53,034 nucleotides of DNA from Planctomycetota bacterium (GTDB lineage: Bacteria > Planctomycetota > MHYJ01 > JACQXL01 > JACQZI01): positions 1-53,034 of the forward strand of contig JACQZI010000037.1 in assembly GCA_016207825.1 (NCBI GenBank), read 5' to 3'. How positions within the stretch are numbered: position 1 is the first letter of the stretch; every line of letters starts with the position of its first letter. The notes under the pieces are model-generated. The model made no database searches and had not been told where the DNA came from. It saw only the letters and a list, made by a program, of their open reading frames with translations. The position numbers were made by a program, and so were the translations under genes. This document shows positions 24,554 through 53,034 of the stretch, in pieces.

Positions 24554-25220
24554 AAGTTTCCCCGAAAGAGGAAATAATTTTAAGAGGCAATAAAAATATA
24601 CCGGCGCCTGATTAACTACGCGCATGCACCGGATTAATTCATTCCGGATTCATGTCCCGCTAAAGATACCGTCTGGTTTTATCAAATGGTTGCTTACGAT
24701 TCACAAGTTACGGGTAAGGATTTAAATACCCCGTCGGCATAGCTTAATTCATAACCCGAATATGCGTTATTTAATCATAGGGCAGGTATCATTAGATGCC
24801 GGTTTAGGTATGGCCGGAACGAGGGGTTGGTTCAACGAAAAGGATGGTTAGGTAAAACCAAAGGCTCCCCATTGGTTTTGAAGTCAGCCGGAAAGGGAAA
24901 TCTCCTCCCACCCCCACCACCCCCCGGTGGTACCCCTGCCAAAACGAAATAAAGGAATTTTCATCTTAATATATTCGTTTTACGTCTTTTTTGGGTATTG
25001 AAATGTCAGTATTGGCCATAAACGAGGGGTGTTATTAGCCAAAAGCAGTGTTACCAAACGGTAATTTTGTAACCTTTTAAGCAGCCTAAAACACCCCAAA
25101 ACCGTTATATTAGCTATGGCTAAAAGTGTTTCCGTATGGTAACGCTTGTTACCGGTTGGTAATGCGGATTTTAGTGTCTAAGTGATTTATTTATAAGGAG
25201 TTGGGTGGTTACGAAATAGT
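24554..25220. other. Long non-coding region upstream of the sigma-54 locus
   Basis: No open frame of gene quality is seen. It holds a GAAA-capped small hairpin at 24557-24574, an inverted pair CCGGA/TCCGG at 24629-24647, a C-rich stretch at 24902-24931 with an ACCACC/GGTGGT palindrome (24916-24931), and clustered inverted-repeat boxes from 25039 to 25163. I tested the 24600-24900 part by eye for tmRNA and riboswitch signatures and found none that hold. Confidence 0.6.
25039..25163. promoter_or_regulatory. Clustered inverted-repeat boxes, candidate activator sites
   Basis: GTTACC-N4-GGTAAT occurs twice, at 25050-25065 and 25148-25163, 98 bases apart. A perfect GGTAAC-N4-GTTACC overlaps the second at 25138-25153, and TTAGC-TATG-GCTAA lies at 25110-25123. 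The first and second clusters also align as a diverged direct repeat (about 25039-25073 and 25118-25153). The rightmost box ends 86 bases before the -24 element, a usual distance for binding sites of sigma-54 activators. Confidence 0.55.
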
Positions 25221-25249
25221 CATCCAGTACATAATTTATGTGCTGGATG
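25221..25249. repeat. Long palindrome abutting the -24 element
   Basis: Arms CATCCAGTACATAA (25221-25234) and TTATGTGCTGGATG (25236-25249) pair over 14 bases with one G-T mismatch. The right arm ends on the first G of the -24 GG pair, so a protein bound here could block or position sigma-54 RNA polymerase. Confidence 0.65.
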
Positions 25250-25264
25250 GCACGCTTTTTGCTA
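25247..25264 (+). promoter_or_regulatory. Sigma-54 (-24/-12) promoter of the GxxExxY and giant surface genes
   Basis: TGGCACG (25248-25254), four bases, TTGCTA (25259-25264): an exact match to the TGGCACG-N4-TTGCW consensus with GG and GC ten bases apart. Transcription should start near 25275, before the GxxExxY ATG at 25322. Clustered inverted repeats lie 86-200 bases upstream. Confidence 0.85.
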
Positions 25265-48729: not shown

Positions 48730-48758
48730 TTGACAAGCAATCTTTTTTCCTGTATAAC
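48730..48758 (+). promoter_or_regulatory. Near-consensus sigma-70 promoter of the TPR activator, apparently leaderless
   Basis: TTGACA (48730-48735), exactly 17 bases, TATAAC (48753-48758). Only seven bases separate the -10 box from ATG 48766, so the transcript should begin at the start codon. No Shine-Dalgarno is present. Confidence 0.75.
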
Positions 48759-48765
48759 CAATATC

Positions 48766-50760
48766 ATGAAAACCGGAAAAAGATTATCCGATTATCTGGA
48801 ACGGATAAAAGCCTCGAATACACGGCGTGATTATCGGATATCCCAACGGATAGGCGAATGGTGTCTGAAAAATATTGCTCACCTCACCGGTTCTCCCAAC
48901 GAAAAATACCTCTTGTATTACCGTTTGGGGTATGCTTATTACCAATTAATGGATTACTCCCGTTCGATTGATTCCTTTTATAAAGCCACACTTGTCGCCG
49001 TTAAAGACCATTTACCGCCGGTGGAATTATTTGATGCTTCCTTAATACTGGGTCATAGTTTTATTGGTATCCGTGCCACCGGGCAGGCGCTTCGGCAATT
49101 CCAGAAAGCCGAGCGGTATTACCGGACATATCAATATCAATTCGGCACCACCAAACAATCAGAATATTTCAGCCTTTTTCTCGGGCAGGCTTATTGCTTT
49201 TTACTCCAAAATGACCTGTCGGTCGTCTGGGAGATTCTGGAGAGAAAGTTATCTCCCATTTTGTCATCGGTTAGTAATAAGGGATTTCTGATTGATTATT
49301 ACCATCTTAAAGGGGAATATGAAGTCGCCAATAAACAGTATGCCCCGGCGCGGCAGTCTTTTCAGCAGGTTGTTGCCTTAAGCGACGAGCTTCATCTCGA
49401 GCGCAGTGGCCTGGAAGCCCAAATCCATCTGGCAATGATTGACTTAGTCGCCGGCCAATTAGAAACAGCTTGGGTCTTATTATCCCGGATTAACCGAACC
49501 GCCCGGGCGCTTAAATTTGATGATATGACCTGTGAATCCATCCTGCTTTTAGGCAAGTACTATTTATTAGAAGACCAGCCGACACACGCCGCGAGGTTAG
49601 AAAAGCAAATAAAACCACTCTTAAAGAAAGTGGATATTGTCTGGTTATACGAAAAGATCAGAGAATTTGATGAGTTTTATTGGAAATTGAAACTTCCTGA
49701 GAAAAATAATACGCCGTCCATCCCGAAAATTATTACTCAAACTATCAATCAGCATTACGTTACCTCCGCCGGTAAAGATATGGTTATCGGTAATTCTGCG
49801 GCGATGAGAGAAACATGGCAATTAGTTGAGAAAATTGCCCTGACAGATTTACCGGTATTAATTCAGGGGGAAACCGGAACAGGCAAAGAACTTATTGCCA
49901 ATGCTATACATGCAAATAGCCAACGTGTAAATAAAACCTACCTTCCTTTTAATTGCGGAGCGTTTCCAGAAACACTTATAGAAAGCACACTTTTCGGCCA
50001 TGCCAAAGGCGCTTTTACCGGGGCAACCGAAGAGAAAAAAGGCTATATTGAACTCGCTTCAGGCGGCACACTTTTTATAGATGAAATTGGTAATATGTCT
50101 CCGTCTATGCAGCAAAAATTACTTCGGGTTATGGAAGAAAAACTTCTCTGGAAAGTGGGCGGACAAAAACCTATTCCGGTTGATACCCGCTTTATCTTCG
50201 CCAGCAATCAGGATATTGAGCAGATGGTCAAAAACAAATTATTCCGTGAAGACTTATTCTATCGTATCAATACTATTGTGATTAACTTACCGCCCTTGCG
50301 CGACCGTAAAGATGACATCCTTCTACTAACCCAGCGCTTCCTCGCTAAATATAGGTCTCTTAAAACTAACAACCAACAACTAACTACTAACAACTTAAAT
50401 ATTTCTCCCAGCGCTTTAGCGCTTCTGGTTGCTTATTCATGGCCTGGGAATGTAAGAGAGCTTGAAAACGAGATAAAACGTATTTGTGTTTTATACCCTG
50501 ATGCTAAAACAATTACAGAAACAATGCTTTCTGAAACAATCAGAACTTATCGGGGGACAACCTCGTTTAGTTGCTCTGGCCGAATACTCAAAGACGCAAC
50601 CCGTGATTTCCAGAAGAGGTTTATCCAAAATGCCATCCAAAAACACCCGGCTAACCTTACGGTGGTCGCCCGGGAATTGGGGCTTACCCGTTGGGGATTC
50701 TATAAGAAAATGAGGGAGCTCAAAATCTCTACGGACCGGAGAGAAAGTGGACAAAAATAG
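48766..50760 (+). CDS. Sigma-54-dependent activator with N-terminal TPR-like helical domain
   Basis: About 664 residues. The N-terminal half (about 1-310) is helical with TPR-like repeats (YLLYYRLGYAYYQLMDYSRSIDSFYKAT; SGLEAQIHLAMIDLVAGQLETAW), so input is probably by protein or ligand binding. The AAA+ domain has Walker A GETGTGKE near 368, the sigma-54-contacting GAFTGA at 415-420, Walker B GGTLFIDEI near 433 and RDRKDDI. A Fis-type helix-turn-helix (about 620-655) ends it. An odd in-frame TNNQQLTTNN insert (about 534-543) sits before the AAA lid. I chose ATG 48766, not the in-frame ATG 48694, because a sigma-70 promoter ends just before it and ATG 48694 lies in the terminator tail. It lies between two sigma-54-driven surface genes and likely controls one or both. 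Confidence 0.9.
   Translation: MKTGKRLSDYLERIKASNTRRDYRISQRIGEWCLKNIAHLTGSPNEKYLLYYRLGYAYYQLMDYSRSIDSFYKATLVAVKDHLPPVELFDASLILGHSFIGIRATGQALRQFQKAERYYRTYQYQFGTTKQSEYFSLFLGQAYCFLLQNDLSVVWEILERKLSPILSSVSNKGFLIDYYHLKGEYEVANKQYAPARQSFQQVVALSDELHLERSGLEAQIHLAMIDLVAGQLETAWVLLSRINRTARALKFDDMTCESILLLGKYYLLEDQPTHAARLEKQIKPLLKKVDIVWLYEKIREFDEFYWKLKLPEKNNTPSIPKIITQTINQHYVTSAGKDMVIGNSAAMRETWQLVEKIALTDLPVLIQGETGTGKELIANAIHANSQRVNKTYLPFNCGAFPETLIESTLFGHAKGAFTGATEEKKGYIELASGGTLFIDEIGNMSPSMQQKLLRVMEEKLLWKVGGQKPIPVDTRFIFASNQDIEQMVKNKLFREDLFYRINTIVINLPPLRDRKDDILLLTQRFLAKYRSLKTNNQQLTTNNLNISPSALALLVAYSWPGNVRELENEIKRICVLYPDAKTITETMLSETIRTYRGTTSFSCSGRILKDATRDFQKRFIQNAIQKHPANLTVVARELGLTRWGFYKKMRELKISTDRRESGQK
50359..50397 (+). 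repeat. AACTAACAACC repeat inserted in the activator gene
   Basis: Repeated (A)ACTAACAAC/CAACAACTA units, read in frame as LKTNNQQLTTNNLN inside the AAA+ region of the activator. The low complexity contrasts with the flanking conserved protein sequence. Confidence 0.6.
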
Positions 50761-50765
50761 ACATC

Positions 50766-50783
50766 TGTCAACTTTAGTTGTCA
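50766..50783. promoter_or_regulatory. Imperfect palindrome, candidate activator site
   Basis: TGTCAAC-TTTA-GTTGTCA has seven-base arms with one mismatch pair. It lies about 107 bases before the -24 element of the downstream promoter. The sequence differs from the GTTACC boxes at 25.1 kb. Confidence 0.35.
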
Positions 50784-50887
50784 CTTGCTATCAAAACTCT
50801 GCCCCGCCTAATTTAATTACCTTGTCCTAACCACTTACTCCGCATAAAGTTATACGATTTTATCCATTCCGCGATAATAACCATGCC

Positions 50888-50904
50888 TTGGCACGTTATT
50901 TGCT
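50888..50904 (+). promoter_or_regulatory. Sigma-54 (-24/-12) promoter of the glycine-rich surface gene
   Basis: TTGGCACG (50888-50895), four bases, TTGCT (50900-50904): a full match to the YTGGCACG-N4-TTGCW consensus. Transcription should start near 50915, about 44 bases before the start codon. Confidence 0.88.
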
Positions 50905-50958
50905 ATACATTGAAATACAGATATTAACCGCTAAGGCGCAAAAGAGGATGAAAATTAT

Positions 50959-53034
50959 ATGAAAATCAGGAAATTGGTCATTGGGATTTGCTCATTGGTC
51001 ATTGTTTGGTCATTGCTCATTGGTCATTGGAATTTCGCTTACAGCGATTCCTGGTCCGAAACCACCTTCACATCCGGCACTTTTAACAGCACTATGACTT
51101 CTACAGGCGGCAGCGATGTAACTCTTTTGGTGTCTATTGATACCGGTAATGGCGCGGATGGAGCGTTGAATGTTTCAGCCGCGGATTTTAACATCAATAC
51201 CCAGACCCAGCAGGCCGGCCGGGCAGGTATCGCCGATGCGGTTAATTTCTCCGCTGATGCCTCAAACGGCGTGATAAATAACGCGGATAGCTCTGTTATA
51301 TTATCAGCCGTTCCAAACGGTTTGGCTATCAATGATGAAATCCTGATTATTAACCTCAAAGGAACTTCCGGTGATTATACGAATGTGGGTAATTACGAGA
51401 CTAAAAAAATCTCCGCGATAAATGCCAACACGATTACATTTACCCAGCCTGTCTCCAATACCTACGGCGATGCCGCAACCCAGAAAATAATGGTTCAACG
51501 GGTGCCGAATTATACGGATGTCACCGTGGCTACAGGGCGTGTCTTAAATGCTAACGGTTGGGATGGAACTAAAGGAGGGGCATTGTTTTTCCGGGCGACC
51601 GGAACAGTCACCGTTACCGGTTCAATCAGCGTGAATGCCAAAGGGTTTATTGGCGGTGTGGCTGAAGCAGGCAGTTATAAAGGCGGCTATGGCGGCGAAA
51701 CCTATAATGGCCAAGGCGGGAAAGGCGGAAATAGCGGGGTTGACGGCTCTTCACTCCAGGGAGGAGGCGGCGGTGGCGGGCTAACTCGCTTGGGCGCTGG
51801 GGGAACCGTTGGCAGTGGCGGTGGCGGCGGCGGTTATGGATCTTCAGGCGGATTTACTTACGGCGGTGGCGCTGGAGGCGGTGGTTACGGAACTGCCGGT
51901 AATTATGGCCAAGGATACAATAATGGCGCTTCTGGAAATACCGGCCAATACGCCTCGGGAGGAGGAGGAGGAAACGCCGGCCCTGCTGGCTCTAATGGCG
52001 GCGGCGGCGGCGGTGCCGGAACTGTTGGGACATCAGACCTGTCAAAATTATATTTGGGCAGTGCCGGTGGCGCGGGAGGGGATAAGGATACTATAAAGGG
52101 AGGAACAGGCGGTAACGGCGGAGGAATAATATTTATTAAAGCCGCCAATATAATTATTAGCGGATCTGTTCAATCCAAAGGAGGGGCTGGCAATAATGGA
52201 GTAAGCTATTCCGGTGGTGGCGGCGGAGGAAGCGGCGGCTCAATTTATCTAACAGCTGCTACTGTTACGATAGGCGCATCGCTGGTCGCGGCAACAGGAG
52301 GCGCCGGAGGAACATCCGCATATAATGGCGGCGCCGGCGGTGCGGGCCGGATTCGGATAGATTATATTTCTCTTTCAGGCAGTTCTAACCCGGCCGCTTC
52401 CGCTAATTTCATTCTATACCCGTCCCCGGGCACTTATATCTCCGGCGCGATTCAGCCTGCCGGCGTTTCTTACTGGGGATTCGTTACTTATACCAAAACC
52501 ACCCCGGCCAATACCATCTTAACCGTTGACGTCTTGAGTTCTTCCAATAATTCCCTGTTAGTGGCGAATGTTCCTGCTGGCACAGATCTTATGGCGGCTT
52601 ATCCGGCGACATTTGACAATATTACCGGTATTAAACTAAGAGGTAATTTCTCAACTTCCGATGGTCTCAATACCCCGCTCCTTTCCGATTGGGGGATGGA
52701 ATATGTTAGAGGGACGGCTGTTACCACCACCAACTGGACGAGTTTGACTCAGGCTGATCGGGCGGTTCAGATGGGACAATCCGTTGCTTATGTAAAGTTT
52801 GAAATGAAAACTATTTCTGGTGCGGCTTTATGGAAAAGATTCCGTATAGATAAAGGTTTAAAGACATATACCAACATCGCCTGCCCGGATTCAAAGATAG
52901 AAGTCCAGGTCTGGTGCGATACGAATACTAACGGCTTCTGGGACGCAGGTGATACTTTTATCAGCAAAGGTAATTTTACCAACGGCACGTGTTACCTCAA
53001 CATGAACCGCTGGCAGGTAACAACCACTCCCAAG
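50959..53034 (+). CDS. Secreted glycine-rich surface protein, 3' end beyond the window
   Basis: At least 692 residues, open at the window edge. The start is the ATG at 50959-50960; I give the coordinate in frame with the body. A purine-rich AAAGAGGA lies about ten bases upstream. A signal peptide (about 1-27, hydrophobic core VIGICSLVIVWSLLI) is encoded by TTGGTCATT repeats. Next is a beta-rich domain (about 30-200; DVTLLVSIDTGNGADGALNV, NDEILIINLKG). A segment of about 190 residues then has runs of Gly, Ala, Ser and Asn (51700-52340), probably an extended or beta-helical stretch framed by VTVTGSISVNAKG and IIISGSVQSKG. The C-terminal part, as far as seen, resembles beta-sandwich modules (ITGIKLRGNFSTSDGLNTP; VQVWCDTNTNGFWDAGD). 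The function is unknown; it is likely cell-surface or matrix. Confidence 0.85.
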   Translation, partial: MKIRKLVIGICSLVIVWSLLIGHWNFAYSDSWSETTFTSGTFNSTMTSTGGSDVTLLVSIDTGNGADGALNVSAADFNINTQTQQAGRAGIADAVNFSADASNGVINNADSSVILSAVPNGLAINDEILIINLKGTSGDYTNVGNYETKKISAINANTITFTQPVSNTYGDAATQKIMVQRVPNYTDVTVATGRVLNANGWDGTKGGALFFRATGTVTVTGSISVNAKGFIGGVAEAGSYKGGYGGETYNGQGGKGGNSGVDGSSLQGGGGGGGLTRLGAGGTVGSGGGGGGYGSSGGFTYGGGAGGGGYGTAGNYGQGYNNGASGNTGQYASGGGGGNAGPAGSNGGGGGGAGTVGTSDLSKLYLGSAGGAGGDKDTIKGGTGGNGGGIIFIKAANIIISGSVQSKGGAGNNGVSYSGGGGGGSGGSIYLTAATVTIGASLVAATGGAGGTSAYNGGAGGAGRIRIDYISLSGSSNPAASANFILYPSPGTYISGAIQPAGVSYWGFVTYTKTTPANTILTVDVLSSSNNSLLVANVPAGTDLMAAYPATFDNITGIKLRGNFSTSDGLNTPLLSDWGMEYVRGTAVTTTNWTSLTQADRAVQMGQSVAYVKFEMKTISGAALWKRFRIDKGLKTYTNIACPDSKIEVQVWCDTNTNGFWDAGDTFISKGNFTNGTCYLNMNRWQVTTTPK
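50974..51034 (+). repeat. TTGGTCATT tandem-like repeat encoding a signal peptide
   Basis: TTGGTCATTG and TCATTGGTCATTGG words recur about five times. Read in frame they give LVIGICSLVIVWSLLIGHW, the hydrophobic core of the export signal. Confidence 0.65.

Follow-up and report, generated by a model that had tools for sequence, protein, structure and literature searches.

A predicted sigma-54 promoter beside a TPR-type activator gene, very probably the output promoter of a repeated surface-protein cassette in a Planctomycetota bacterium

Near the end of a Planctomycetota contig, an exact match to the -24/-12 consensus of sigma-54 promoters lies between the gene of a predicted sigma-54 activator and a gene for a secreted glycine-rich protein. 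Is this match a genuine promoter, and is it driven by the activator beside it? We examined the window, which is the whole of contig C37 (JACQZI010000037.1; 53,034 nucleotides), together with the 2.89-Mb genome to which it belongs (G000; GCA_016207825.1). For comparison with relatives, nine genomes of the order and 294 genomes from the phylum, own genome included, were sampled.

The promoter site and the neighbouring activator gene

The motif occupies positions 50888..50904 of the forward strand and reads TTGGCACG-TTAT-TTGCT (full string TTGGCACGTTATTTGCT), as a preliminary description of this DNA had given it. It fits TGGCAC-N5-TTGC exactly, with GG (50890-50891) and GC (50902-50903) ten bases apart, and starts 128 bases past the activator stop (stop codon 50758-50760; 127 bases between). 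Transcription is predicted to start at around 50915 (50914-50916), upstream of a likely ribosome-binding site, GAGG, at 50944..50947. The next gene begins with an ATG at 50959 and encodes a protein with a signal-peptide-like N-terminus and 20% glycine, in agreement with the secreted glycine-rich product described earlier.

The genome encodes sigma-54, as a Sigma54_DBD domain is present in a 523-aa frame on contig C24. A second, shorter RpoN-like protein (369 aa; L076:10809-11918, on C6) is clustered with NtrC-type activators. Across the whole genome, TTGGCACGN4TTGC has 29 occurrences and its reversed control one; for TGGCACN5TTGCT the counts are 37 and none, although at least two of these 37 resemble chance matches inside coding repeats (L070, L075:7740). 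The proposal that two consensus matches in one window exceed chance was borne out: TGGCACGN4TTGC occurs exactly at 25248 and 50889, where about 0.03 would be expected, an estimate from the 11 fixed bases of the pattern. That both sites precede surface genes is true of the one at 50888 and only partly of that at 25248, which is followed first by a 129-aa PDDEXK_3/GxxExxY ORF and only then by a 7638-aa ORF.

The activator gene (48766..50760, forward strand) encodes a one-component sigma-54 activator, or bEBP, of 664 aa (P0001), with a TPR sensor, an AAA+ domain and HTH_8, as seen by Pfam and in an alignment of the family (A3). The AAA+ domain (Sigma54_activat, 3e-67) contains the Walker A sequence GETGTGKE and the GAFTGA loop, and a Fis-type helix-turn-helix (HTH_8, 1e-5) spans residues 613-651 at the C-terminus. 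The N-terminus is made of TPRs, and no receiver domain was found in this protein. TPR_12 was matched in all 15 members of the activator family and MalT-like TPR in 12 of the 15, and a Rap phosphatase chain was matched with an E value of 2e-4. MalT and Rap/RRNPP-type regulators likewise have a TPR domain, which is ligand-responsive in those bacterial proteins, but they are not known to be AAA+ sigma-54 activators.

A sigma-70-type promoter, TTGACA-N17-TATAAC with a TG extension, lies at 48730..48758 on the forward strand, such that the activator transcript apparently starts at about its own ATG and would be leaderless. Most paralogs are alike, having TTGACA-N15-TGTATAA a few bases 5' of the ATG, a placement that suggests constitutive, leaderless transcription of the activators. 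Promoters of this type are found elsewhere in the genome too (33 versus 1 for a control).

Recurrence of the arrangement in this genome and in relatives

Among the 27 Sigma54_activat domains of the genome, 15 belong to intact TPR-type activators and one more TPR-type copy is broken in the assembly (C23, L092). A -24/-12 site follows 14 of the 15 intact genes, on the same strand and 125-372 bp past the stop. The fifteenth (L083) is the end of an operon whose start has such a site, and the broken copy has one as well. With 37 sites in the genome, a downstream site is expected by chance at 0.0026 per activator; the binomial probability of 14 in 15 would be ~1e-35 for independent genes, a figure that is exaggerated and only indicative, as paralogs are not independent.

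Relatives have the same arrangement. The TPR activator family was detected in four of the 294 phylum genomes, our own and G003, G007 and G006, all of this order. In G003 and G007, each of the eight TPR activators with downstream sequence has a downstream -24/-12 site, 118-375 bp from the stop for seven and 863 bp for one. These sites mostly precede secreted proteins or proteins like F3 (see below), and across genera the activator stays beside the promoter while the target gene differs. The GG and GC are retained at the sites of those paralogs and relatives that keep the cassette. A same-genus genome (56% complete) yielded no TPR-type activator and no ortholog of the window's cassette; it does keep the -24/-12 site at another activator locus, one of NtrC type (L156 versus L090).

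These data, from paralogs and from relatives in other families of the order, strongly support the earlier suggestion of a sigma-54 promoter driven by its neighbouring activator. We conclude that 50888-50904 is, very probably, a true sigma-54 promoter that serves as the output of a cassette, as opposed to an isolated match. The cassette very probably comprises a sensor-activator gene, its own docking site, a promoter and a surface-protein gene, present in around sixteen copies in the genome. On the evidence of the DNA, we regard the identification as a sigma-54 promoter and its assignment to the activator next to it as well supported and likely to be right; the link between activator and promoter is strong.

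Could the motif instead be a relic of cassette duplication that has decayed or lost its function? In favour of this, the target gene is incomplete in the assembly, and the activator of one cassette (C23) is broken; the truncation, however, is due to the contig end. The motif itself is perfect, whereas the positions around it differ between paralogs, whose activators share only 52-62% identity with the first in the alignment. We consider such a leftover very unlikely.

Dyads upstream of the promoters as candidate enhancers

Between the activator stop and the promoter of the window lies a dyad, TGTCAAC-TTTA-GTTGTCA (50766..50783), centred 114 bp upstream of the -24 element, which is a candidate enhancer (UAS). 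Most modules have a dyad whose centre falls between -108 and -115, or ~113 bp before the -24 element, with half-sites that mostly differ, for example TGTAAAC-CGCA-GTTTACA (L089), TGTGGA-TTTTG-TCCACA (L094), TGTATA-TTTTG-TATACA (L084) and TGTGTCT-TTTT-AGACACA (L077). For dyads at -128 to -104 the combined p value was 2e-11 over 25 regions. An earlier scan without constraint on position or on TGT gave p ≤0.05 in 9 of 23 regions (Fisher statistic 112.4, 46 degrees of freedom). In four modules (L088, L139, L141 and L143) no clear dyad stands where one would be expected. A further element, CTAAC...GTTA, is common to the cassettes and intervenes between dyad and promoter; in the window it is CTAACCACTTACTCCGCATAAAGTTA, at 50827..50852. 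It falls at about -62 to -37 and shows position-specific conservation across 14 modules, reaching 1.2 bits at -59 to -53.

In many modules the dyad lies 10-30 bases past the stop codon, where a terminator or another 3' feature of the activator gene might be expected. The arms are, however, mostly AT-rich, 6-8 bp long and free of a T run, and in the window CTTGC comes next. The dyad remains at -110 to -112 in L098 and L077, despite stop-to-promoter distances of 208 and 372 bp, and stays within -110 to -115 in L083 and L071, which have no such activator upstream. The dyad thus keeps its distance from the promoter, not from the stop codon, and for this reason we rejected the terminator reading, which we rate as very unlikely. 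A dyad ~113 bp upstream is likely to be the private enhancer of its module.

A real promoter might also be driven in trans by a distant sigma-54 activator, with the neighbouring gene adjacent merely through block duplication of cassettes. Sharing of this kind does appear in the genome. Five sigma-54 promoters without an adjoining activator (L094:6471, L094:9799, L095:3100, L096:3343 and L073:12914) have a common dyad, TCATTA...TTAAATGA, centred ~102 bp upstream. This group, which includes large surface proteins, is probably a trans regulon, unlike the cassettes. In addition, L071 has the dyad of L077 and no neighbouring activator. Yet the dyads differ between most modules, where a trans regulator would keep one, as in the five-promoter group; the activator is kept beside the promoter across genera although the target differs; and helix and dyad agree in the L084/L140 pair described below. 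Control of the window's promoter in trans is accordingly unlikely in our view, though less so than the terminator or leftover readings. A single regulon shared by the TPR cassettes was rejected on the same ground, that their dyads differ, whereas a shared dyad exists at the five other promoters.

Control by the neighbouring activator need not be exclusive. The pattern of the window's dyad occurs at four places in the 2.89 Mb, two of which lie -112/-114 from a perfect -24/-12 site; one of the four belongs to the C23 module, in which the activator gene is broken. Because L071 carries the dyad of L077, and the window's dyad resembles that of C23, the wiring does not look strictly one-to-one, and the enhancers are likely to be mostly private. 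With that proviso, we infer one activator per enhancer.

If each activator selects its own enhancer, recognition helix and dyad may covary. One such case is L140, from G003 in another family of the order, which has the same recognition helix as L084 (LGLTRAGLYRK) and nearly the same dyad, TGTATA...TATACA. Over all pairs, helix and dyad were correlated with rho 0.49 (p 2e-4) when hand-curated dyads were included; automatic dyads only gave rho 0.35 with p 0.056 or weaker. The Mantel test reached significance only when three hand-curated dyads and a hand-set selection were used. The covariation is thus suggestive and not robust, and a strict helix code is not proven.

We therefore favour, with good but not complete confidence, a self-contained cassette of activator, dyad, promoter and surface-protein gene as the best explanation of the locus. 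The activator gene would be transcribed from its own sigma-70-type promoter, and the TPR domain of the product would respond to a cue. The protein would then assemble at 50766-50783, on the dyad ~114 bp before the -24 element, reach the RNA polymerase-sigma-54 complex by DNA looping and open the promoter with ATP. The output would be a surface protein, in the window the glycine-rich one. Since most enhancer dyads differ among the approximately sixteen cassettes, each activator probably acts chiefly on the gene beside it, and many surface proteins apparently gain an on-switch of their own in this way.

Surface-protein products, precedents and other -24/-12 sites

The target gene of the window (50959..53034, forward strand) is cut by the contig end, 53034 being the last base of C37, and its product is ~40 aa short of the C-terminus. 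It belongs to a family, F1, whose members have in common an N-terminus that resembles a signal peptide and contains DSWSETTF, and a C-terminal domain of ~150 residues; this domain was matched in the window at C37:52690-53034 (E 1e-59). Matches to the domain were found at 32 places in this genome and two in the same-genus genome, with two weak matches in G006 and none in G003 or G007. The middles of the proteins vary: glycine-rich, RCC1, kelch, BNR, laminin-G/DUF2341 (lectin-like) and DUF4082. The C-terminal domain is modelled as a beta sandwich (pLDDT 68) and gave no firm match in Pfam, PDB sequence or fold searches. Ten other modules encode a protein of ~80 aa, F3, between the promoter and F1 or elsewhere in the transcription unit; in the window, no F3 gene separates promoter and target. 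F3 had no Pfam or convincing PDB sequence match, and its model (pLDDT 78) gave weak best Foldseek hits to BLIP-type domains (E 0.07, TM 0.6) and OsmE (E 0.24).

A more far-reaching proposal is tentative, and we think it less likely than not. Cassette duplication may have built about sixteen sigma-54 switches that are insulated from one another, a kind of switchboard in which each TPR activator has its own cue and enhancer, with helix and dyad co-diverging. Each would turn on one surface-protein operon from a family with interchangeable middles, and F3, with its weak BLIP/BamE-like fold, might act as an anti-activator on the TPR domain.

The closest precedents are found in Desulfovibrio vulgaris, where genes of one-component EBPs are co-localised with sigma-54 promoters, mostly as divergent pairs or within an operon, and once with the promoter downstream of the activator (PMC4641369). 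As there, an activator gene lies beside the promoter that it is predicted to control, a palindrome, here a candidate enhancer, is found upstream, and the co-localisation is conserved in relatives; the link to the cell exterior, the largest functional group in D. vulgaris, is shared as well (PMC4641369). In contrast to D. vulgaris, around sixteen paralogous copies here keep a single order of parts, the sensor is a TPR domain, and the outputs are paralogous as well.

A second precedent is the PEP-CTERM-associated PrsK-PrsR-PrsT system, in which many genes are served by a single two-component activator (PrsR) and a single shared motif, and the TPR is found on a protein of its own (PMC1569441). 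Sigma-54 sites and an upstream activator motif before many exported surface proteins, together with an associated TPR protein, are features of both (PMC1569441). The PrsR regulon has an NtrC-type activator with a receiver domain, whereas here the TPR is fused to the activator, which lacks a receiver domain, and the enhancers differ between modules. Nor do the targets have a PEP-CTERM signal: by inspection, complete F1 paralogs terminate in DSSYLEFENATCVGVP(P), the window's own C-terminus lying past the contig end. The general association of sigma-54 promoters and activators with cell-exterior genes, described in a survey across genomes (PMC3162934), is echoed here; a text search of that survey found no mention of TPR. 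A search of the literature on TPR and EBPs, made mostly among papers outside subscription, found no description of the TPR-AAA+-Fis architecture. Locally encoded sigma-54 activators are known, then, and what appears new is a cassette repeated as many paralogs, with TPR sensors and enhancers that differ. In this bacterium, cassette duplication would have placed separate enhancer-dependent switches on many surface proteins, an alternative to phase variation or one shared regulon. The paralogs offer a natural data set on how Fis-type helices choose enhancer half-sites, and the cassettes a source of candidate independent sigma-54 activator-enhancer pairs.

The first -24/-12 site of the window, TGGCACGCTTTTTGCT (25248..25263, forward strand), lies upstream of the PDDEXK_3 ORF and of the 7638-aa ORF, a single frame at 25721-48637. 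A dyad ~100 bp upstream, GGTAAC-GCTT-GTTACC (25138..25153), is a candidate enhancer of another activator, acting in trans. In G003, a TPR activator gene and a -24/-12 site precede a homolog of the 7638-aa protein (L141; 31% identity over ~2800 aa), and GGTAACA-AAAA-TGTTACC, which resembles the dyad of the first site, lies farther upstream. The -24 half of the first site is overlapped by a near-perfect inverted repeat at 25221-25249, with 14-nt arms that are 93% complementary and 1 nt apart.

Elsewhere in the genome, sites at L072:4398 (forward strand) and L100:5328-5342 (reverse strand) are followed first by a short transposase-like HTH protein and beyond it by RHS/YD-repeat proteins, and a perfect -24/-12 site on the minus strand of L080 (C7:115190) lies upstream of a type IV pilin-like gene. 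In G008, several copies of convergent pairs of perfect -24/-12 motifs ~200 bp apart (L151:3675-3889, L152:5546-5760) are probably the inverted ends of a repeat, and such copies do not count as evidence of promoters.
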